36,633 nt of DNA from Paracoccaceae bacterium (GTDB taxonomy: Bacteria > Pseudomonadota > Alphaproteobacteria > Rhodobacterales > Rhodobacteraceae): NCBI GenBank assembly GCA_013214635.1, contig JABSSC010000046.1, forward strand, positions 1-36,633, read 5' to 3'. The stretch's first letter is position 1, and the number at the start of each line of letters is the position of its first letter. Of this stretch, positions 6,281 through 14,861 are shown piece by piece. The position numbers were made by a program, and so were the translations under genes. The notes below the pieces were generated by a model. The model searched no databases. It saw only the letters and a list, made by a program, of their open reading frames with translations, and was not told the DNA's origin.

Positions 6281-7255
6281 TCAGGGTTTCAGAATGATCT
6301 TCGGGGGAAGGACCTCACCCGCTTTGATCTGGGCAAACGCACGGGCGCCGTCGCGCAAGGGGCGTTCTTCGATCCAGTTCAGCGGGCCAAGGCGGCCGTC
6401 CCACATCGCTTGGGCGCAGTCGCGGAAGTCCTGGTTGGTATAGGTGTAGGTGCCGATGAAGGTGATTTCCTGCAGCGTCATGCGCCGTATATCCAGCCCA
6501 CCGGCGTCCTCGCCAAGTCCGATGTGAACAATCACGCCACCGGGCGCCGCAAGAGCGGACGCCGTTGCGCGAGTGACCGAGTAACCAACGGCGTCCACAA
6601 TCAAGGGCGCCATTTCGTTGGTTTCGGTGCGGGCATCCATACTCAGTTGATTGGTCAGATAGTCCCTGCGCGTGGGATTTGGTTCAATCAGGATCACGTC
6701 TTTCACGCCCATTCCCTGTAGCGCCAGATAGGCGGCCACACCAATCGCGCCGCCGCCCAGGACAACGGCCCGTCGCTCCATGGAAGGGTGGAGTGCCTCA
6801 AGACCCAGGCGCACCGCGTGCCAGCTGACGGCAAGCGGTTCGGCAAGAGCGGCTTGCGAAAAGCTTACACCGTGAGGGACTTCCACAAGATTTCGTTCGG
6901 GCATCGTGACGTATTGCGCAAACGCCCCTTCACGCGGCGGCATGGAAATGATCTGGCGGGATGGATCAAGGTTTTCGCGCCCCGCGCGGCTCTCGGCGCT
7001 GGTCGGATTGGTAACAAGCGGGTTGATGGTGACACGTACGCCGTCTCTGGCCCCGCCAACGATCGTTCCTGCTGCTTCGTGACCAAGGATCAGAGGGGCA
7101 GGGCGTCGATCGTCATGGCCAAGATAGGCATGCATGTCCGATCCGCAGATGCCGACACTGTCGATGGCCACAAGGACTTCTCCCGCGCCCGCTGTCGGGT
7201 CTGGGGCATCTCGCATCTCGAGTGTCTCGGGCCCTGTGTAAACAAGCGCCTTCAT
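6281..7255 (-). CDS. hpsP: Zinc-type medium-chain alcohol dehydrogenase, probable DHPS 2-dehydrogenase
   Basis: A 324-residue MDR-family NAD(P)-dependent dehydrogenase. The catalytic zinc site is present: C37 in GICGSD, H59-E60 in LGHE. The nucleotide-binding Gly motif is VVLGGGAIGVAA. The structural-zinc lobe is degenerate: the stretch NPLVTNPTSAESRAGRENLD (residues 78-97) has none of the four cysteines normally found there, so the enzyme probably binds only one zinc. In known clusters hpsN, hpsO and hpsP are adjacent and in that order, and HpsO/HpsP oxidise or reduce the C2 of 2,3-dihydroxypropane-1-sulfonate to interconvert its enantiomers. Here it is third in that order, with an ATGA overlap with the SDR gene. 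The symbol is assigned by context and order. Confidence 0.75.
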   Translation of the reverse strand: MKALVYTGPETLEMRDAPDPTAGAGEVLVAIDSVGICGSDMHAYLGHDDRRPAPLILGHEAAGTIVGGARDGVRVTINPLVTNPTSAESRAGRENLDPSRQIISMPPREGAFAQYVTMPERNLVEVPHGVSFSQAALAEPLAVSWHAVRLGLEALHPSMERRAVVLGGGAIGVAAYLALQGMGVKDVILIEPNPTRRDYLTNQLSMDARTETNEMAPLIVDAVGYSVTRATASALAAPGGVIVHIGLGEDAGGLDIRRMTLQEITFIGTYTYTNQDFRDCAQAMWDGRLGPLNWIEERPLRDGARAFAQIKAGEVLPPKIILKP

Positions 7256-8013
7256 TTTGCTGTGTACCCCCCGTCGACCATCAGGATCTGCCCCGTCACG
7301 TATCTTGACGCCTCAGAACACAAGAAAAGCAGGGGACCATCCAGATCCTCTGGGACGCCGTTGCGTCCGATGCAGGTCTGGGCGGCGTTGCGTGCGGCGC
7401 GATCTTTGTCGTCGAACACAGGCGCGGTCAACTCGGTCGGGAAGAAACCCGGGCCAAGGGCGTTGGCTGTGATCCCCTGTTCAGACCATGCTTGTGCCAT
7501 GGCACGTGTGAGTTGTGCGATACCACCTTTTGTTGCGCCATAAGCAATCCCACCAGGAAATGCGCGGGACGATTGTAATGAAGCAAAGTTCACAATCCTC
7601 CCCCATCTCTGAGACTTCATAGCCGGAACGAAAGCCTGACTGAGAAAGAATGGGGCCGACAGATTGATGGCCAGTGTCGCGTCCCAGCCTTCGGCCGTCA
7701 CGTCGTCCGCGGCCTCGCGCATGTTAAGCCCTGCGGCGTGCACAAGAATATCCGGCGATCCGAAAGGCTCTGAGATTTTCGCGACAAGTTCGGGCAAGTT
7801 CGCCTGATCAGCGATATCTCCCGTGACGTAGGCGCCGTTGTTGCCAACACCGGCCTGCCACTCCTCCAACGCATCTTGGCGTCGGGCGATACCCACCACC
7901 TTGGCACCCGCAGTGGCAAGAACATCTGCTGCGCGGCGCCCAAGCCCCGAGCTTGCACCCGTCACACACGCCACGCGGCCTGTGACAGAGAAAAGATCGC
8001 CGTTCAGTGTCAC
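7252..8013 (-). CDS. hpsO: Short-chain dehydrogenase/reductase, probable DHPS 2-dehydrogenase
   Basis: A 253-residue classical SDR. It shows the cofactor motif TGASSGLG (18-25), N117 in AINLSA, and the catalytic S145, Y158 and K162 (Y-x3-K). I use the GTG at 8011-8013 as the start: it lies one base after the hpsN stop, and GAGGGG sits just before it; an upstream extension of the frame would overlap hpsN by over 100 bases and is not SDR-like. It ends in an ATGA overlap with the zinc-type dehydrogenase gene. With that enzyme it would interconvert (R)- and (S)-DHPS through the 2-keto compound, feeding the stereospecific HpsN. The fold is certain, the substrate is inferred from the operon. Confidence 0.78.
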   Translation of the reverse strand: MTLNGDLFSVTGRVACVTGASSGLGRRAADVLATAGAKVVGIARRQDALEEWQAGVGNNGAYVTGDIADQANLPELVAKISEPFGSPDILVHAAGLNMREAADDVTAEGWDATLAINLSAPFFLSQAFVPAMKSQRWGRIVNFASLQSSRAFPGGIAYGATKGGIAQLTRAMAQAWSEQGITANALGPGFFPTELTAPVFDDKDRAARNAAQTCIGRNGVPEDLDGPLLFLCSEASRYVTGQILMVDGGYTAK

Positions 8014-8014
8014 G

Positions 8015-9322
8015 CTACCCCTCGGCGCTGAGATCGAAGTTCTCGGTGGGGAAATACTTGCGCAGGCGAATATCAGCTGTGCGCGCGTGCCCTTCCATCC
8101 CTTCAAGGCGAGAAATACGCGCCGTCGCCAGCGCCACATCGCGCGACCCCTGGCGTGTTGCGCGCTGCCACGTGACGATCTTCATGTATTTGTGGACGCT
8201 CAAACCGCCTGTGTAGCTCGCTGCGCCGGAGGTCGGCAGAACGTGGTTCGTACCGGATGCCTTGTCTCCAAAAGCAACGGTCGTTTCTTCACCAAGGAAG
8301 AGAGATCCGTAGCAGGAGAGGCGGCTGAGCCACCAGTCAAGGTCCTCCGCCTGCACAGTCAGGTGCTCTGGCGCATAATCGTCCGACGTTGCCGCCATTT
8401 CTTCGCGATCCGCGCAAACAATGACCTCAGCATAGTCGCGCCATGCCGCTGTTGCGTTTTCGCGGTTGGTTTCGGGTAGATCGTCGATGAGCTTTGGTAC
8501 TAGCGTCATGACCTCTTCCGCGAGTGGACGATGATCCGTGACCAGCCAGACCGGGGAGTTGTAGCCATGCTCGGCCTGTCCCACCAGATCGGCCGCGACC
8601 ACTTCGGGATCGGCGCTTGCATCGGCAAGGACGAGGCTATCGGTCGGGCCCGCGATCATGTCGATTCCGACACGCCCAAACAGCATGCGCTTCGCTTCGG
8701 CCACGAACTGATTTCCTGGGCCCACAAGAATGTTGGCCTTGGGAAGGCCAAAAAGGCCAAACGTCATTGCGGCAACGCCCTGAACGCCGCCCATGGCGAG
8801 GATCTTGTCCGCACCACAGGTGTGAGCGGTATAGATGATGGCAGGCGCAATGCCGACGTCTGGTCGCGGGGGAGAACAGGCGACGATATGATTGCAGCCA
8901 GCAACCTTGGCCGTTGTGACGGTCATGATCGCGCTGGCGATATGACTATAACGACCGCCGGGCACATAGCATCCCGCCGCATTTACCGGGATCGCCTTTT
9001 GACCAGCGATCAGCCCTGGCACGACTTCGGTCTCAAAGTCGGCAACCGTCGCCTTTTGCGCCTCTGCAAATTTCTTCACGTTGGCATGGCTGAACTCGAT
9101 ATCGCGCCGCAGCTTTTCAGGAACCTTTGCTGCCGCCGCCGCAATTGCCTCGGGCGACATCAGGATTTCGCCATCGTACTTGTCGAACTTGGCTGCGTAT
9201 TTCAACGCTGCTTCGTCCCCGCCGGCTTCGATATCTTCAAGGATATCCCGCACGATCTTTTGGGTTTCCGACGCATCGCTCTGGGCGGTTAGCGTCGCTT
9301 TCTTTAGGTACTCTCTCGGCAT
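8015..9322 (-). CDS. hpsN: Sulfopropanediol 3-dehydrogenase (HisD-fold)
   Basis: A histidinol-dehydrogenase-family enzyme of 435 residues that oxidises C3 of (R)-2,3-dihydroxypropane-1-sulfonate to (R)-sulfolactate with NAD+. The zinc and catalytic residues of HisD are kept: Q249 and H252 in GQAEHG, E319-H320 in APEHL, D353 in FGDKASG, H412 in EGHAR. It differs clearly from the true hisD at 31630: the Asp after QAEH is Gly, and the substrate-side segment GRYSHIASA replaces GLASYPSSV. The ATG at 9320-9322 follows AGGA by seven bases, and that site overlaps the TAG stop of the TRAP permease gene. A TTG one codon earlier is possible but less well placed. Transporter and suyAB neighbours support the sulfonate role. 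Confidence 0.87.
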   Translation of the reverse strand: MPREYLKKATLTAQSDASETQKIVRDILEDIEAGGDEAALKYAAKFDKYDGEILMSPEAIAAAAAKVPEKLRRDIEFSHANVKKFAEAQKATVADFETEVVPGLIAGQKAIPVNAAGCYVPGGRYSHIASAIMTVTTAKVAGCNHIVACSPPRPDVGIAPAIIYTAHTCGADKILAMGGVQGVAAMTFGLFGLPKANILVGPGNQFVAEAKRMLFGRVGIDMIAGPTDSLVLADASADPEVVAADLVGQAEHGYNSPVWLVTDHRPLAEEVMTLVPKLIDDLPETNRENATAAWRDYAEVIVCADREEMAATSDDYAPEHLTVQAEDLDWWLSRLSCYGSLFLGEETTVAFGDKASGTNHVLPTSGAASYTGGLSVHKYMKIVTWQRATRQGSRDVALATARISRLEGMEGHARTADIRLRKYFPTENFDLSAEG

Positions 9323-9331
9323 CAAACGGTC

Positions 9332-10660
9332 CTATTTGTAGATATCTGGCAGAAGCGCGGTCGAAATCGTTGGCACGTAGGCAATGAACAACGTCACGAT
9401 CAGCATAAAGAGAACGAAGGGGATAGCGCGATACGCGATCTTCAATATCGATTCCCCGGTTATTCCAGCCACCACAAAGAGATTAAGCCCAAGCGGCGGC
9501 GTAATGAAGCCCACACCCAGCGCCGTGATCATCATGATGCAGAACTGAATCTCATTCATTCCGATGTTGTCGGCCAAGGGCTTAAGGATCGGCGCAAGGA
9601 TCACGATGTTCGGTGTCGTTTCCATGACGCAGCCTGCAGCTATGAGGATGCAGAGCATCATGAGGATGATCACGAAAGGCTCTTCGCTGACCGAGGTTGC
9701 GGCAGAGACAAAGCCTTGGGGGACACCGATGATGGCGAGCGCTTCGGCAAGCGGCGCAGAGAATGCAATGATGGGGAGGATTACGCCGTTCACCTTGGCG
9801 GAACTGACCAGCATTGCGGGAAAATCGCTAAGGCGGAGCGTACCCAGCACGAACCCCATGACGATGGTGACGACAACAGCGGTCGCGCCAGCCTCGGTCG
9901 GGGTGAGGCGGCCCGAAAAAATCCCGTAGAAGATAATCCCGGGCACAAGGAACGCATACCAGCCGGACTTTAGCGCAGTCCCAAGGCGCGAGAAGTACTC
10001 GCCCATCGAGATGTTTCCGCCACCTTCCCAGCCATAGAGCCGGTTCATGATCACGTTGGTTGCAAGGATCGACACGAGGATCGCAATGCCCGGGATGAGC
10101 GCGGCAAGGAACAGGGTCGATGCCGAAATCCCCAGAACAAGCCCGATGATGATGTAGGCGATCGAAGGTGGGATCAGAATGCCGGTACATGCGCCGGCTG
10201 CTACAAGCGCACAGGCATATGGGCGTGGATAGCCGCTTTCAACGAGCCGATCGATTGTCATCCGACCAACCGCTGCCGCACCCGCGGCGTCCGAGCCAGA
10301 GATCGCTGCGAACATACCGCAGACAAGAACGGTCGCCGACCCAAAGCCACCCTTGGCAAATTGGGTCAACGCTTCGGCCACATCGAGAAACTTGCGACTG
10401 AGCCCGGTGCGGACCAGAACGTCCCCAGTCAGAATAAAGAGCGGCACAGCCGTTAGTGCGAAAAAGTCGATCCCGGAGAAAAGCTTCTCACCGACAAGGC
10501 TAAGCGGGAGCGCCCCCGACCACAGCAGCATGACAATCGCGGCTGCGCCGATTGATGCCCAGACAGGGACTGCAAGTGCAACGAGCACCACAAAAAGAAT
10601 GATTGACCCGTAGAAGTCCCAACCAAGGACGACGGTCTGTTCGAGTTGATTCCAGAGCAT
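9332..10660 (-). CDS. TRAP transporter large permease, DctM type (HpsKLM-like)
   Basis: A 442-residue integral membrane protein, hydrophobic along most of its length with about eleven or twelve spans, as usual for DctM. Family segments include PLFILTGDVLVRTGLSRKFLD, SGSDAAGAAAVGR, GILIPPSIAYIIIG and, near the C-terminus, GFITPPLGLNLFVVAG. It forms the Na+-coupled translocation channel of a TRAP importer. It is encoded 12 bases after the small permease and nine before hpsN. In Roseovarius a TRAP system (HpsKLM) serves DHPS, and the same role is inferred here. I leave the symbol empty because which letter belongs to which subunit is not certain to me. Confidence 0.92.
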   Translation of the reverse strand: MLWNQLEQTVVLGWDFYGSIILFVVLVALAVPVWASIGAAAIVMLLWSGALPLSLVGEKLFSGIDFFALTAVPLFILTGDVLVRTGLSRKFLDVAEALTQFAKGGFGSATVLVCGMFAAISGSDAAGAAAVGRMTIDRLVESGYPRPYACALVAAGACTGILIPPSIAYIIIGLVLGISASTLFLAALIPGIAILVSILATNVIMNRLYGWEGGGNISMGEYFSRLGTALKSGWYAFLVPGIIFYGIFSGRLTPTEAGATAVVVTIVMGFVLGTLRLSDFPAMLVSSAKVNGVILPIIAFSAPLAEALAIIGVPQGFVSAATSVSEEPFVIILMMLCILIAAGCVMETTPNIVILAPILKPLADNIGMNEIQFCIMMITALGVGFITPPLGLNLFVVAGITGESILKIAYRAIPFVLFMLIVTLFIAYVPTISTALLPDIYK

Positions 10661-10672
10661 TGTTCAGTCCCC

Positions 10673-11188
10673 TTAGTCGAACAGCTTGTCGCCTTCGTAG
10701 ACCGGACGCCCGGCACGAAGGTCCGCGATATCGCGGATGATGGATTGGATGAGGCGGAAAAGGATCAAGGCAAAGCCGATCGGAACCGCCATCAGGAACC
10801 AGACTCTGCTAATGCGAAGCCCGTCGGTTACGGAGCCAAACTTGGCTGCGATGTGGACTGTCTCGTAAGAGTAGTAGAGCGCCACGAGGGATACCGCGAC
10901 CATTACGAAGTCGCCGAACAGATAGAGCAGTGCCTTCGGTTTAGGGCCGACATATTGCATGATCACGTCGATGCGAATGTGACCCCGCTCGCGCACAGCG
11001 GCGGCGGCGCCAATCCAGGCGAGATAGATAAACGAGTATCGGACGATTTCCTCGCCCCAGATTGAGGAGTAGGACAGGACTTCGCGTCGCAGGACCTCGA
11101 TGAACATCGTCGCAACGAGCATCACGTAGAACATCAATAGTGCCCATCGCTCAGCGTTCTTGTTCAAAGCTTCGAATATGCGCTGCAT
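10673..11188 (-). CDS. TRAP transporter small permease, DctQ type
   Basis: A 171-residue membrane protein with four predicted spans (about residues 14-30, 48-65, 85-108 and 131-150), the standard DctQ layout. The first loop contains EVLRREVLSYSSIWGEEIVRY and the second AAAVRERGHIRIDV, both DctQ-like. GGAGGACTCC directly before the ATG is a good ribosome site. It works with the large permease as the membrane part of the TRAP importer. A hairpin and 117 bases of non-coding sequence separate it from the binding-protein gene upstream, so it is probably expressed below the binding protein. Confidence 0.9.
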   Translation of the reverse strand: MQRIFEALNKNAERWALLMFYVMLVATMFIEVLRREVLSYSSIWGEEIVRYSFIYLAWIGAAAAVRERGHIRIDVIMQYVGPKPKALLYLFGDFVMVAVSLVALYYSYETVHIAAKFGSVTDGLRISRVWFLMAVPIGFALILFRLIQSIIRDIADLRAGRPVYEGDKLFD

Positions 11189-11305: not shown

Positions 11306-12451
11306 TCAGGCGTCGTGAACGAAGTACTTGCCTTTTGTTCCGGCAGCTTCTTCGAGCTTGGCGAACACATCCATTGAGCCCGCGAGTTCGACCTTGAACT
11401 CGTCCCAATCCGGAAGCTGGTATCCGCCAGCGGCCTGCCATTCAGCGAGTTGATCGTCGGTCAGCGAGTGGAATTCGACGCCTGCCTTGCGAAGTTCGGC
11501 CATCGCGTAGGTGCGCGCGGACGGAACCTTGGCAAGGTTCTGGTGCGAGGTCAGCTCACCGGCAAACTCGATACCTTCCTGCACATCAGCTGGGAGGCTG
11601 TTGAACCATTCCAGATTCATCGAATACACCTGACTGTCTGGTACAGCCTGCGTGAAGGTTACGTGGCTCAGGATGTCCTTGAAGCCAAAGACGAACAGCG
11701 CACCAACCGACGGATCAAGCGCGTCTGCAACGCCCTGTTTGATGGCCGAAGGTGTTTCGCCCCACGCCACGGGTGTCGGGTTTGCGCCAACAAGTCGGTA
11801 ATACTGCTGGAGCATTTTTGAACCTGGTACGCGGAACTTGATGCCCGACATATCACCGGGTGTGATCACTGCATTGCCGCCCTTGCGCACAGCAACGACG
11901 CGTGGGTCGATGTTGATATAGAACAGCGCCTTGAAACCAGCTTGTTCGATCTTCGGGTGTACTTCGCCTTTCCAGGCATCCGACGTCACAAGATTGGTGA
12001 AGCGCTGGTTCGACCCGCAGAAGTACGGCATGTTGATCAGATCAGCAGCACTTGCAAACGGTGCGAAATTCGACAGCGAGTGCTGTGCACACTGAATGGT
12101 GCCGGCCTGAACCGCCTGAACCAGTGCGCCACCGGCGCCTAGCTGACCGCCCGGGGCGAGCTTTACGTAGACTTTGCCGTTTGTTGCGTTCTGGATGTTC
12201 TCTTTGAGATCCAGCTGCATGATCGGATAGCTGCGCGAGGCGCCAAGCACGTAAGCGGTGGCCAGCGTCATGGTATGATCAGCGGCCTGTTCACGTTCCC
12301 GTTCTTCCTTGGCAGTCTGTGCCGCAGCCTGTTCCGACCACAGCATCCCGCCCGCACCAGCGACAAGCGCCGCGGTAAAGCTGCCTGTTCCGGCCAGCTT
12401 GAGGAAGTTCCGGCGTTCTGTTGACACCAGTTCCTTGTCTTTGTGTTCCAT
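11306..12451 (-). CDS. TRAP transporter substrate-binding protein, DctP type, with Tat signal
   Basis: A 381-residue periplasmic solute receptor. The N-terminus carries a twin-arginine signal (TERRNFLKLAG, Arg13-Arg14), a hydrophobic stretch to about residue 37 and an Ala-rich cleavage region near 41-45, so it is probably exported folded through Tat. The mature part has DctP features: the conserved Arg of the carboxylate/sulfonate clamp probably lies in GIKFRVPGSKMLQQYYRLVGANPTPV (positions approximate), and PSAIKQGVADALDPSV is the helix that follows. GGGAGGAGC precedes the ATG. The 'LVGANPTPVAWGE' version of this segment is close to TRAP receptors for organic acids. DHPS as ligand is inferred from the catabolic genes behind it. 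Confidence 0.92.
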   Translation of the reverse strand: MEHKDKELVSTERRNFLKLAGTGSFTAALVAGAGGMLWSEQAAAQTAKEEREREQAADHTMTLATAYVLGASRSYPIMQLDLKENIQNATNGKVYVKLAPGGQLGAGGALVQAVQAGTIQCAQHSLSNFAPFASAADLINMPYFCGSNQRFTNLVTSDAWKGEVHPKIEQAGFKALFYINIDPRVVAVRKGGNAVITPGDMSGIKFRVPGSKMLQQYYRLVGANPTPVAWGETPSAIKQGVADALDPSVGALFVFGFKDILSHVTFTQAVPDSQVYSMNLEWFNSLPADVQEGIEFAGELTSHQNLAKVPSARTYAMAELRKAGVEFHSLTDDQLAEWQAAGGYQLPDWDEFKVELAGSMDVFAKLEEAAGTKGKYFVHDA

Positions 12452-12471: not shown

Positions 12472-12657
12472 TTAGTGGCTGTCTTTGCTTTTCGCTTGTG
12501 CTTCGCGCTTCAGGATTGCGGCGACGAAAGCGATTGATGCCGCAAACAACAGCAGCATCTCTGAAACGTCATTCAGGATTGGGGATCCGGTCATCGCGCC
12601 GAGCAAAACATTTCCAAAGAACGCGAGAAACAGAACTGCAGATATCAAAAGCGCCAC
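12472..12657 (-). CDS. Small two-span membrane protein leading the TRAP operon, function unknown
   Basis: A 61-residue protein starting at a GTG (12655-12657) with an excellent ribosome site, GGGGAGG, seven bases before it. It has two hydrophobic segments, about residues 2-22 (LLISAVLFLAFFGNVLLGAM) and 32-49 (SEMLLLFAASIAFVAAIL), and a basic, polar tail. It is the first gene of the sulfonate operon: it begins 38 bases downstream of the nearer LacI-type palindrome and ends 20 bases before the binding-protein gene. I do not recognise a named family. Candidates are an accessory subunit of the TRAP permease or a small regulator of it. Coding is supported by the ribosome site, the hydrophobic pattern and the operon fit. 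Confidence 0.7.
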   Translation of the reverse strand: MALLISAVLFLAFFGNVLLGAMTGSPILNDVSEMLLLFAASIAFVAAILKREAQAKSKDSH

Positions 12658-12694
12658 GATCGACCTCCCCTTCGAGCATGCGATTCGCCTAAGA

Positions 12695-12708
12695 TGTAAG
12701 CGCTTACA
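12695..12708. promoter_or_regulatory. LacI-type operator, sulfonate locus, site 1
   Basis: TGTAAGCGCTTACA is a perfect 14-bp palindrome with the central CG typical of LacI-family operators. It lies in the 89-base gap between the operon's first gene and the divergent LacI gene, 22 bp centre to centre from site 2. Confidence 0.75.
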
Positions 12709-12716
12709 TAATTCTA

Positions 12717-12730
12717 TGCAAGCGCTTACA
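12717..12730. promoter_or_regulatory. LacI-type operator, sulfonate locus, site 2
   Basis: TGCAAGCGCTTACA differs from site 1 at a single base, leaving one mismatched pair in the palindrome. It sits 16 bases before the LacI start codon, so binding here would also repress the regulator itself. Confidence 0.7.
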
Positions 12731-12746: not shown

Positions 12747-13853
12747 ATGCCAGTTTCAGGATGGCGCTTGACGGCGCAGAAACGATATAACGTAGGCGTA
12801 TCGGAGGTTACGCAATTGTCGCTTGGTCGTGACACGACAGGATCTGTGCCTAAGCTCGAAGACGTTGCGCGCCGTGCGGGTGTGTCTACGGCAACGGTCT
12901 CGCGGTGTTTGAACGCGCCGACACGTGTGTCGCAATCGACCAGGGAACGTGTGTTGTCTGCCGTACGCGACCTTGGATACGCGCCAAATTTTGGGGCGCG
13001 CGCGCTGGCCGCAAAACGCACCAACACATTTGGCGCGATCATTCCGACGATGGACAACGCGATCTTTGCGCGCGGTCTTCAAGCATTTCAGGATGAGTTG
13101 AGCGCGCATGGCATCACACTTCTTGTGGCGAGTTCGTCTTACGAACGGCAAACCGAGGCCGAACAGATCGCGGCGCTCGTTGCGCGCGGTGCGGATGCGC
13201 TTTTGCTAATTGGCTATGACCGAACGCCCGAAACCTATGCCTTTCTCGACAAGCGCCAGATCCCTTACGTGGTGACATGGGTTTATGATCCGAAAAAGGG
13301 ACACAGATCGATTGGATTTGACAATCGGCACGCCATGAAACAGCTCGCGTTGGCTGTGGTCGATCAGGGACATACGGAGCTGGCCCTGATCACAGCAGAT
13401 CGTGCGGGAAACGACCGGGCCCGTGAGCGCGCGGAAGGGCTGTTTGACGCGATGCGGGAGCGCGGCATTTCAGTATCCAGTCTGCGCCTTATTGAGACGT
13501 CGTACTCGATCGACAATGGCGCGCGCGGGTTTGAAGAATTGATGGCGTCAGCCTCTCCTCCAACCGCAATCCTTTGCGGGAATGATGTTTTGGCGGCTGG
13601 GGCCCTGACTGCGGCGCATCGTTTAGGGATCCGGGTGCCTGAAGATGTCTCTGTGACCGGCTTTGACGATATTGAGCTCGCTAGTATCGTGACGCCCGCA
13701 TTGACGACCGTACATGTCCCACACAGGGAAATGGGGCGGCGGGCGGCAAAAATGCTCGTTGCCTTGCGCAATGAGAGGGAAGCGGGCGGGTCGGAAGAAC
13801 TCCCGACGCAGATTCAATGGCGCGCGTCGCTGGGGCCGGCCCCGCAATCGTGA
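12747..13853 (+). CDS. LacI family transcriptional regulator of the sulfonate operon
   Basis: A 368-residue LacI/GalR repressor. The HTH is LEDVARRAGVSTATVSRCLNAP (about residues 36-57), followed by the hinge region and a periplasmic-binding-like effector domain ending SVTGFDDIELASIVTPALTTVHVP. The ATG at 12747 has GAGGGAG five bases before it but leaves 32 residues before the HTH, unusually long. A TTG at 12816-12818 with GGAGG eight bases before it would give a conventional N-terminus of about nine residues. It is divergent from the TRAP/DHPS operon, with two palindromes between them, so it probably senses DHPS or a metabolite. It may be co-transcribed with the formylglycine-enzyme gene that follows 36 bases later. 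Confidence 0.92.
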   Translation: MPVSGWRLTAQKRYNVGVSEVTQLSLGRDTTGSVPKLEDVARRAGVSTATVSRCLNAPTRVSQSTRERVLSAVRDLGYAPNFGARALAAKRTNTFGAIIPTMDNAIFARGLQAFQDELSAHGITLLVASSSYERQTEAEQIAALVARGADALLLIGYDRTPETYAFLDKRQIPYVVTWVYDPKKGHRSIGFDNRHAMKQLALAVVDQGHTELALITADRAGNDRARERAEGLFDAMRERGISVSSLRLIETSYSIDNGARGFEELMASASPPTAILCGNDVLAAGALTAAHRLGIRVPEDVSVTGFDDIELASIVTPALTTVHVPHREMGRRAAKMLVALRNEREAGGSEELPTQIQWRASLGPAPQS

Positions 13854-13889
13854 CTTGCACTCGGCCCCGTGGTGGCTAGACCCAAAGAC

Positions 13890-14861
13890 ATGGCCATTGA
13901 ACATTTTCAACCAATGTCGGATGCGAAAACCTGCTGCGCCCCAGCGCGGGCGGAAACGCCAGTGCATTCAGTCGGTTCGCCTGTTGTGTCGGGGTCTTTT
14001 GAGGGGCGCTCAACCGCCGTCCACGTGCCCGGCGGTCTGGCATATGTCGGAACGGAAACGCAGCATCTGCCTGCCGATGGCGAAGGGCCGTTTCGAACCG
14101 CCCGGCTTCGCCCCTTCAGGATCGCACCAACGACCGTAACGAACGAAGAGTTCGGATCGTTCATCGAGGCCACGGGATATGTCACTGAGGCCGAGAGATT
14201 TGGCTGGTCGTTTGTTTTCTGGTCCGAAGTCGATGACAGCATTGGTGCAACGCAAGCTGTCGTTGGCGTGGAATGGTGGCGCCGGGTCGACGGGGCAACG
14301 TGGCGCTTGCCGAACGGTCCGGGAAGCGAAGACGCCTGCCACCCGGATCACCCGGTCGTGCAAGTATCGTGGAATGACGCGCGTGCTTATTGTGACTGGG
14401 TTAGAGGGCGTTTGCCAGCAGAGGCAGAATGGGAACATGCCGCGCGCGGTGGATTGGGAGATGTTGCTTTTCCGTGGGGTGACCAAGACCCGAACGATGC
14501 CGATTTCACGCCCTGCAACATCTGGCAAGGTCAGTTCCCGAACGTGAACACCGGAAAAGATGGTTTCAGGACAACCGCTCCGGCGCGATCGTTCGAACCC
14601 AACGGCTATGGGCTTTATAACATGGTTGGCAACGTTTGGGAGTGGACGGCGGAGCCATTTAAAATCAAATCGCTTCGGCGAGACGCCAAGGCCAACGCGA
14701 AAGCGCGGCGCGGACAAAAGCTTCTCAAGGGCGGGTCGTTTCTGTGCCATCGAAGTTACTGCTATCGCTACAGGATCGCAGCGCGTACAGGCAATACGCC
14801 AGACAGCACCACCACCCATCAGGGGTTTCGCGTGGTCTGGGATGTCGAGGACCGCACATGA
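13890..14861 (+). CDS. Formylglycine-generating enzyme (SUMF1/FGE family)
   Basis: Copper-dependent oxidase that converts a Cys (in CxPxR) of type I sulfatases to formylglycine. Counting from the ATG at 13890 the protein has 323 residues. The C-terminal active-site segment KGGSFLCHRSYCYRYR holds both essential cysteines (C286 and C291), and NTPDS and GFRVVWD follow as in true FGE; other motifs are RLPAEAEWEHAARGG and GNVWEWT. This separates it from ergothioneine EgtB and other SUMF1-fold proteins that lack the Cys pair. The start is uncertain: GTG 13869 and ATG 13914 are alternatives and none has a clear ribosome site. No sulfatase gene is in the window, so its client must lie elsewhere. Confidence 0.9.
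   Translation: MAIEHFQPMSDAKTCCAPARAETPVHSVGSPVVSGSFEGRSTAVHVPGGLAYVGTETQHLPADGEGPFRTARLRPFRIAPTTVTNEEFGSFIEATGYVTEAERFGWSFVFWSEVDDSIGATQAVVGVEWWRRVDGATWRLPNGPGSEDACHPDHPVVQVSWNDARAYCDWVRGRLPAEAEWEHAARGGLGDVAFPWGDQDPNDADFTPCNIWQGQFPNVNTGKDGFRTTAPARSFEPNGYGLYNMVGNVWEWTAEPFKIKSLRRDAKANAKARRGQKLLKGGSFLCHRSYCYRYRIAARTGNTPDSTTTHQGFRVVWDVEDRT

Follow-up and report, generated by a model that had tools for sequence, protein, structure and literature searches.

A short two-span membrane protein as a probable fourth component of the Hps-type TRAP importer

The window analysed here is a stretch of 36,633 nucleotides of bacterial DNA, in which a small gene on the minus strand (12472-12657) encodes a two-span membrane protein of 61 amino acids. 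From homologue searches, AlphaFold and dN/dS analysis, we conclude that this protein is probably a dedicated transmembrane subunit of the Hps-type (DHPS) TRAP importer. DHPS, or dihydroxypropanesulfonate, is a marine organosulfonate. Such importers would then probably have a fourth part that is left out of textbooks. We regard the subunit reading as the best explanation because the gene stays with a single transporter clade when operons are rearranged, and even in an archaeon, and because its product is a predicted hairpin with patterned conservation. If true, the TRAP class would include small subunits particular to certain clades, overlooked because their genes have fewer than 100 codons, and transporter annotation would be missing short subunits.

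The small gene opens an operon that continues with hpsK, hpsL, hpsM, hpsN, hpsO and hpsP, all on the minus strand, with a LacI regulator gene divergent from it. The hpsK-like gene (11306-12451) encodes a TRAP binding protein (Pfam DctP) with a Tat-type signal, RRNFLK, the hpsL-like gene (10673-11188) a small permease (Pfam DctQ) and the hpsM-like gene (9332-10660) a large permease (Pfam DctM). Three enzyme genes follow: a histidinol-dehydrogenase-like, hpsN-like gene (8015-9325, Pfam Histidinol_dh), a short-chain dehydrogenase, hpsO-like (7252-8139, Pfam adh_short_C2 from residue 61), the true start of which is, by analogy with Leisingera, probably near the end of hpsN, and an alcohol-dehydrogenase-like open reading frame, hpsP-like (6281-7255). 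Identities to the R. pomeroyi SZCCDBG043 proteins were 85% for HpsK, 73% for HpsL, 87% for HpsM, 78% for HpsN, 68% for HpsO and 65% for HpsP. DctP, DctQ and DctM are thus encoded together, as in a TRAP transporter operon, and the HpsK, HpsL and HpsM orthologues with the HpsN, HpsO and HpsP enzymes alongside mark an hps importer. In R. pomeroyi, an hpsK (SPO0591) mutant with impaired growth on DHPS served as a positive control (PMC10130141, in part), and by analogy with this mutant DHPS would be the substrate here.

The GTG start codon of the small gene lies at 12657-12655 and its stop ends at 12472. The ribosome-binding site GGGGAGG (12664-12670, minus strand) stands 6 bases upstream of the GTG, and a gap of 20 bases separates the gene from dctP. 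An earlier note on this DNA had reported these signals, the 61 residues and two hydrophobic segments, and all of them were confirmed, the segments as 17-residue windows that begin at residues 3 and 33; that the gene is on the minus strand was absent from that note. Its placement of the gene directly after the operators also proved right, as the nearer palindrome, a perfect LacI-type operator with the sequence TGTAAGCGCTTACA (12695-12708), is 37 bases from the start codon. A second LacI-type operator with one mismatch lies at 12717-12730, followed by the divergent, hpsR-like LacI-family regulator gene (12747-13853, plus strand; Pfam LacI and Peripla_BP). Upstream of the small gene, 77 of 78 loci have operator-like sites (at most two mismatches) within 200 bases, and none of the 78 has one between the small gene and hpsK; among random 200-mers the background was 2 in 2000.

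AlphaFold, run with 80 aligned sequences, predicts a confident helical hairpin for the small protein, with helices at residues 2-23 and 30-59 (mean pLDDT 92.9, pTM 0.71). Near-invariant residues are N16, V17, G20, D30, V31, E33, M34, L37, F44, L49 and E52. Conservation follows an alpha-helical periodicity in both segments, a result reached in 0 of 20000 permutations for TM1 and with a permutation p=0.004 for TM2. The basic tail described before is a property of the family, with a mean net charge of +0.9 from residue 50 onward, and the loop at residues 21-33 has a mean charge of -1.9. Under the well-established positive-inside rule, this acidic loop and basic tail suggest that both ends are inside.

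Conservation of the gene was closely tied to hpsK. With tblastn, the small frame was present in 10 of 61 genomes including its own, the nine others (of 60) being 44-61% identical, and at all ten loci an HpsK-type dctP adjoins, once as a partial gene at a contig end. Profile A1, built from these ten proteins, was run against 394 genomes of the family and matched in 76, strongly in 73 (E<=1.4e-7) and weakly in 3 (E 0.002-0.007), where the matches sit within frames of 312-412 amino acids. An HpsK search of the same 394 genomes gave 74 genomes at E<=1e-90. The 73 with an HpsK of at least 73% identity are exactly those with a strong small-gene match, and the two genes are adjacent in 73 of 73: 71 pass a strict computed test, and two are adjacent by table coordinates (L023, with an estimated 20-base overlap, and L061, with a badly estimated K start in a 905-residue frame). 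Fisher's test on the resulting 2x2 table, which ignores the kinship of the genomes, gave p ~1e-79. Thus the homologue search upstream of dctP that the earlier note had proposed revealed co-occurrence with hpsK far above chance. The 74th genome, G111, has an HpsK at 57% and a divergent small gene that profile A1 missed. In 228 genomes of the family, HpsM at 74% or more turned up in 44, every one of which belongs to the 73 that carry hpsK and the small gene. When contigs were scanned starting from hpsK, the small gene was upstream in 79 of the best 80 of 428 loci; the 80th (L127) begins inside hpsK at a contig end. Nearness was counted in 91 of 93 loci, the other two being L127, cut at the contig end, and L184, where an estimated overlap of 2 bases led us to take the gene as present.

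Beyond the family, a sample of 289 genomes of the class contained 14 strong matches (E<=6.1e-15; 3 from the same family), which adjoin hpsK in 14 of 14 cases, two of them at contig ends with a partial hpsK; 8 weaker matches (E 0.013-0.08) were also found, 6 of these in frames of at least 365 amino acids. Of 299 genomes sampled from the phylum, 5 had hpsK (E<=1e-60); four of these belong to the same family and the fifth to the same class. A tblastn search of plasmids with the small protein gave 16 matching records, including one inside lspA at E 8. In five of these records (Leisingera caerulea, L. aquaemixtae, Sulfitobacter, Paracoccus and Rhodobacteraceae SC52) the gene is labelled 'hypothetical protein', with the TRAP genes on one side and a divergent regulator gene on the other; the regulator is annotated as LacI-type in four records and as 'substrate-binding domain-containing' in SC52. 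One contig from a metagenome-assembled genome labelled Gammaproteobacteria (L112, JABXHR010000247.1) carries hpsK to hpsP and the small gene; it is possibly mis-binned or transferred.

As controls, 95 other dctP regions were searched for a two-span frame of 45-110 amino acids ending at most 300 bases upstream of the DctP domain match. They comprised 89 top-listed dctP matches and, from the genome of the window, 6 of its 8 dctP matches, leaving out HpsK and a truncated one. Since these 89 came from the top of the list, the controls lean to strong Pfam DctP matches, HpsK itself scoring lower. A genuine two-span small gene was found upstream of 0 of the 95. Eleven gave an apparent one, and all 11 were pieces of open frames of 240-455 amino acids, by eye ten DctM C-termini and one other membrane protein (L283). 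Frame length alone is no proof, because a true small gene (L012) also lies within a 375-residue open frame. The same test found the small gene at 91 of 91 HpsK loci (93 in total, with L089 and L127 omitted), its window being shifted 130 bases upstream because the HpsK domain match starts at residue 81. A further TRAP system, that of G125 (36% P, 31% Q and 39% M), had no match to the small-gene profile in 11 kb (best 3.5 bits) and no two-span small frame among the frames listed around it. The small protein goes with the Hps clade and the closest relatives of that clade; as a statement on TRAP importers generally, the idea of a fourth component is not supported, given the 0 of 95 dctP genes and the G125 system at 36-39%. 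A general TRAP or Tat-linked helper is likewise ruled out by the control regions.

More distant relatives were found in rearranged operons. In Rhodovulum sulfidophilum, where HpsK is 70% identical, a 74-residue frame scoring 34-36 bits lies between LacI and hpsK. One record labels this small gene (L325:4709-4933) 'major facilitator superfamily MFS_1', likely a misannotation, and another 'hypothetical'. G111 has dctQ and dctM first, then four enzyme genes, the small gene (77 amino acids) and dctP. A second locus of G206 has dctQ, dctM, three genes of matching size, the small gene (78 amino acids) and a dctP cut at the contig end. The DctM of G111 and G206 is 58-60% identical to HpsM and the DctP 57% to HpsK. 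The enzyme genes of G111 (L089, L328; G206 counterpart L339) include Pfam SDR, E1/transketolase and 3-hydroxyisobutyrate-dehydrogenase types, and the fourth is glyoxalase-like by eye; the substrate of this type of operon is perhaps not DHPS.

The most distant case is a plasmid of the archaeon Haloarcula pelagica (NZ_CP126163.1, 135585-146544; L326) with an Hps-type TRAP cluster. Here two UxaA-type proteins, which we infer to be SuyAB-like, and a hisD-like gene precede dctP (47% to HpsK), dctQ (47%) and dctM (50%), followed by a 93-residue two-span protein labelled 'hypothetical'. This looks like a DHPS/sulfolactate catabolic cluster on an archaeal plasmid. The cluster also has a putative sulfate exporter family protein. 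The 93-residue protein scored 17.9 bits, and hhalign gave a probability of 92.6% with profile A2; for the window DctQ the value was 0.2%. When blocks were shuffled so that the hydropathy pattern was roughly preserved, the real score was reached in 0 of 5000 trials each for Haloarcula, G111 and Rhodovulum. Of 809 two-span frames in the loci covered, 200 had 16 bits or more. Of these, 196 exceeded 40 bits, many being one gene retrieved repeatedly, and the other four were those of G111, Haloarcula and two Rhodovulum records. Below them, the best two-span frame had 13.2 bits and was in a 365-residue frame. A tblastn search of plasmids with the Haloarcula protein returned only itself. The proposed homology of the archaeal and G111/G206 proteins rests on 17.9-21 bits plus gene context, scores that alone would be weak in a whole-proteome search.

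Where the gene order changes, the small gene is thus retained: next to dctP but four (G111) or three (G206) genes away from dctQM, and after dctM in Haloarcula. Its neighbour is dctP in the bacteria seen and dctM in the archaeon, so that the position 'ahead of DctP' given in the earlier note holds in the Alphaproteobacteria examined, where the gene adjoins hpsK, but is not universal. These arrangements bear on an alternative in which the small protein serves HpsK rather than the permease, by helping with its Tat export, its membrane retention or its docking. We consider this rather unlikely. It would fit a gene that is the immediate neighbour of hpsK in those Alphaproteobacteria and that stays by dctP when dctQM are three or four genes off, and a Tat-like motif is found in 92 of 93 HpsK-like proteins (the one miss is cut at a contig end) and also in the Rhodovulum and Haloarcula binding proteins. 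However, in Haloarcula the gene comes after dctM rather than dctP, and by eye the binding protein looks like a Tat lipoprotein, which would need no tether. Moreover, 12 of the 95 control regions have a Tat-like motif, and the two apparent small genes there, both among the 11 mentioned above, are pieces of longer frames.

Selection on the protein was consistent. Among 148 distinct sequences, dN was below dS in 60 of 60 disjoint pairs, with a median ratio of 0.35; pooled pN/pS over these pairs was 0.53, synonymous sites being near saturation, and this value tells against the subunit reading. In 352 overlapping pairs with 0.05<dS<1, the median dN/dS was 0.19. The earlier note would have given up its proposal for a frame that was unconserved or under no selection; instead the frames are conserved and dN lies below dS throughout the disjoint pairs. 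Conservation and dN/dS rule out a chance or untranslated frame. The gene could still be read as a leader frame only, acting in translational coupling or attenuation with a peptide that has no role, as it immediately precedes hpsK and the gaps are small (median 23 bases, 71 loci). Selection on the amino acids, the near-invariant polar residues and the Haloarcula copy, which follows dctM and does not lead, make this explanation highly improbable.

Evolutionary rates gave a more ambiguous picture. Mean distances were 0.67 for the small protein, 0.54 for the LacI regulator, 0.15 for K, 0.23 for Q and 0.13 for M; that the small protein evolves faster than K, Q and M counts against the subunit reading. 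Partial correlations of distance matrices (69 loci) singled out no partner, with -0.07 for K, 0.20 for Q, 0.08 for M, 0.16 for N and 0.43 for the fast-evolving regulator. A rate nearer to that of the LacI regulator than to that of the permease, and the operator-like sites directly upstream in nearly all loci, could point to a regulatory membrane peptide, one that would sense substrate or the state of the transporter and adjust either the operon or transporter activity. Against this, Pfam and NCBIfam revealed no known signalling or DNA-binding domain, and the relatives in Haloarcula and G111/G206 are placed elsewhere in their operons. We therefore regard a regulator as quite improbable.

Returning to a subunit of the importer as the preferred reading, the earlier proposal of a conserved fourth small membrane component stands in so far as a conserved, selected two-span protein is linked to hpsK in all 73 genomes. 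Its status as a physical component, by contrast, is something we infer, as are its topology, physical association, partner and effect on the permease or docking face. The protein would be a helical hairpin whose two ends lie inside and whose short acidic loop lies outside, and one conserved face per helix would pack against a membrane partner. This partner would most likely be the DctQ/DctM permease (HpsLM), near the docking site of HpsK. Made first from the LacI-controlled operon, the small protein would be present when the permease and the binding protein are made, and it may stabilise the permease or shape its docking face for HpsK. In a bolder version, which we put forward tentatively and hold to be somewhat doubtful, Hps-type importers could be four-component machines in bacteria and archaea, with an obligatory two-helix subunit that completes DctQM and helps couple HpsK docking to transport.

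The small protein was also compared with known families. The window protein has no Pfam or NCBIfam match at E<=0.1, and one weak PHROG match (E 0.044). Together with the hhalign value of 0.2% against the window DctQ, this rules out a degenerate DctQ. For 80 family members, no Pfam family fell below E 0.001; the commonest weak match, Herpes_LMP2 (21 of 80 members, best E 0.0017), was taken as hydrophobic composition. A fold comparison gave 19 matches, none at E<=0.001. The profile match, two predicted helices and a gene within an HpsK-type TRAP operon place the protein in a family of its own, that of small Hps-TRAP proteins. Small two-span transporter partners are known elsewhere, namely DUF485/YjcH with ActP and DUF4212 with sodium:solute symporters. 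They are similarly short, with two helices and a gene adjoining the transporter, but their associated transporter families differ, and DUF485 was matched by 2 of 80 members (best E 0.15) and DUF4212 by 0 of 80 at E<=1. The ectoine TRAP system TeaABC likewise has a fourth protein of its own, the UspA-type TeaD; this is, however, a soluble ATP-binding regulator, whereas the small protein is a predicted membrane hairpin.

In the passages available from a TRAP review (PMC5812351), the components are given as DctM, DctQ and DctP or TAXI, and TeaD is unmentioned there. VcGluQM, a TAXI-TRAP permease, has a claw domain (DUF3394) that is also an addition in one kind of TRAP permease, but this domain is periplasmic and part of the permease polypeptide itself rather than a small membrane protein of its own (PMC11574862). 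The closest described system is hpsKLM of R. pomeroyi, as the neighbours here are the HpsK, HpsL and HpsM orthologues; three parts are described there, whereas the small protein here is a fourth conserved gene. Literature passages on hpsKLM name three components only, which counts against a fourth subunit. In R. pomeroyi DSS-3, hpsR is SPO0590 and hpsK SPO0591, and given these consecutive tags, taken from part of the source, the small gene is probably untagged (PMC4334477). Among the matches listed in open-licence PMC literature on a fourth or small TRAP component, hps and DHPS, the small protein was not recognised. If it is indeed a fourth conserved gene in the DHPS clade, a reconstituted HpsKLM may be incomplete.

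Two side observations concern the assembly and the window. Another contig of the window's own assembly (C224:1-5360, L341) carries at its edge a second HpsM (84% over 210 residues) and HpsN (79%), reflecting either a second hps cluster or a mixed assembly. In the window itself, a gene for a formylglycine-generating-enzyme-like protein (Pfam FGE-sulfatase, 13869-14861) starts 15 bases past the LacI regulator gene.
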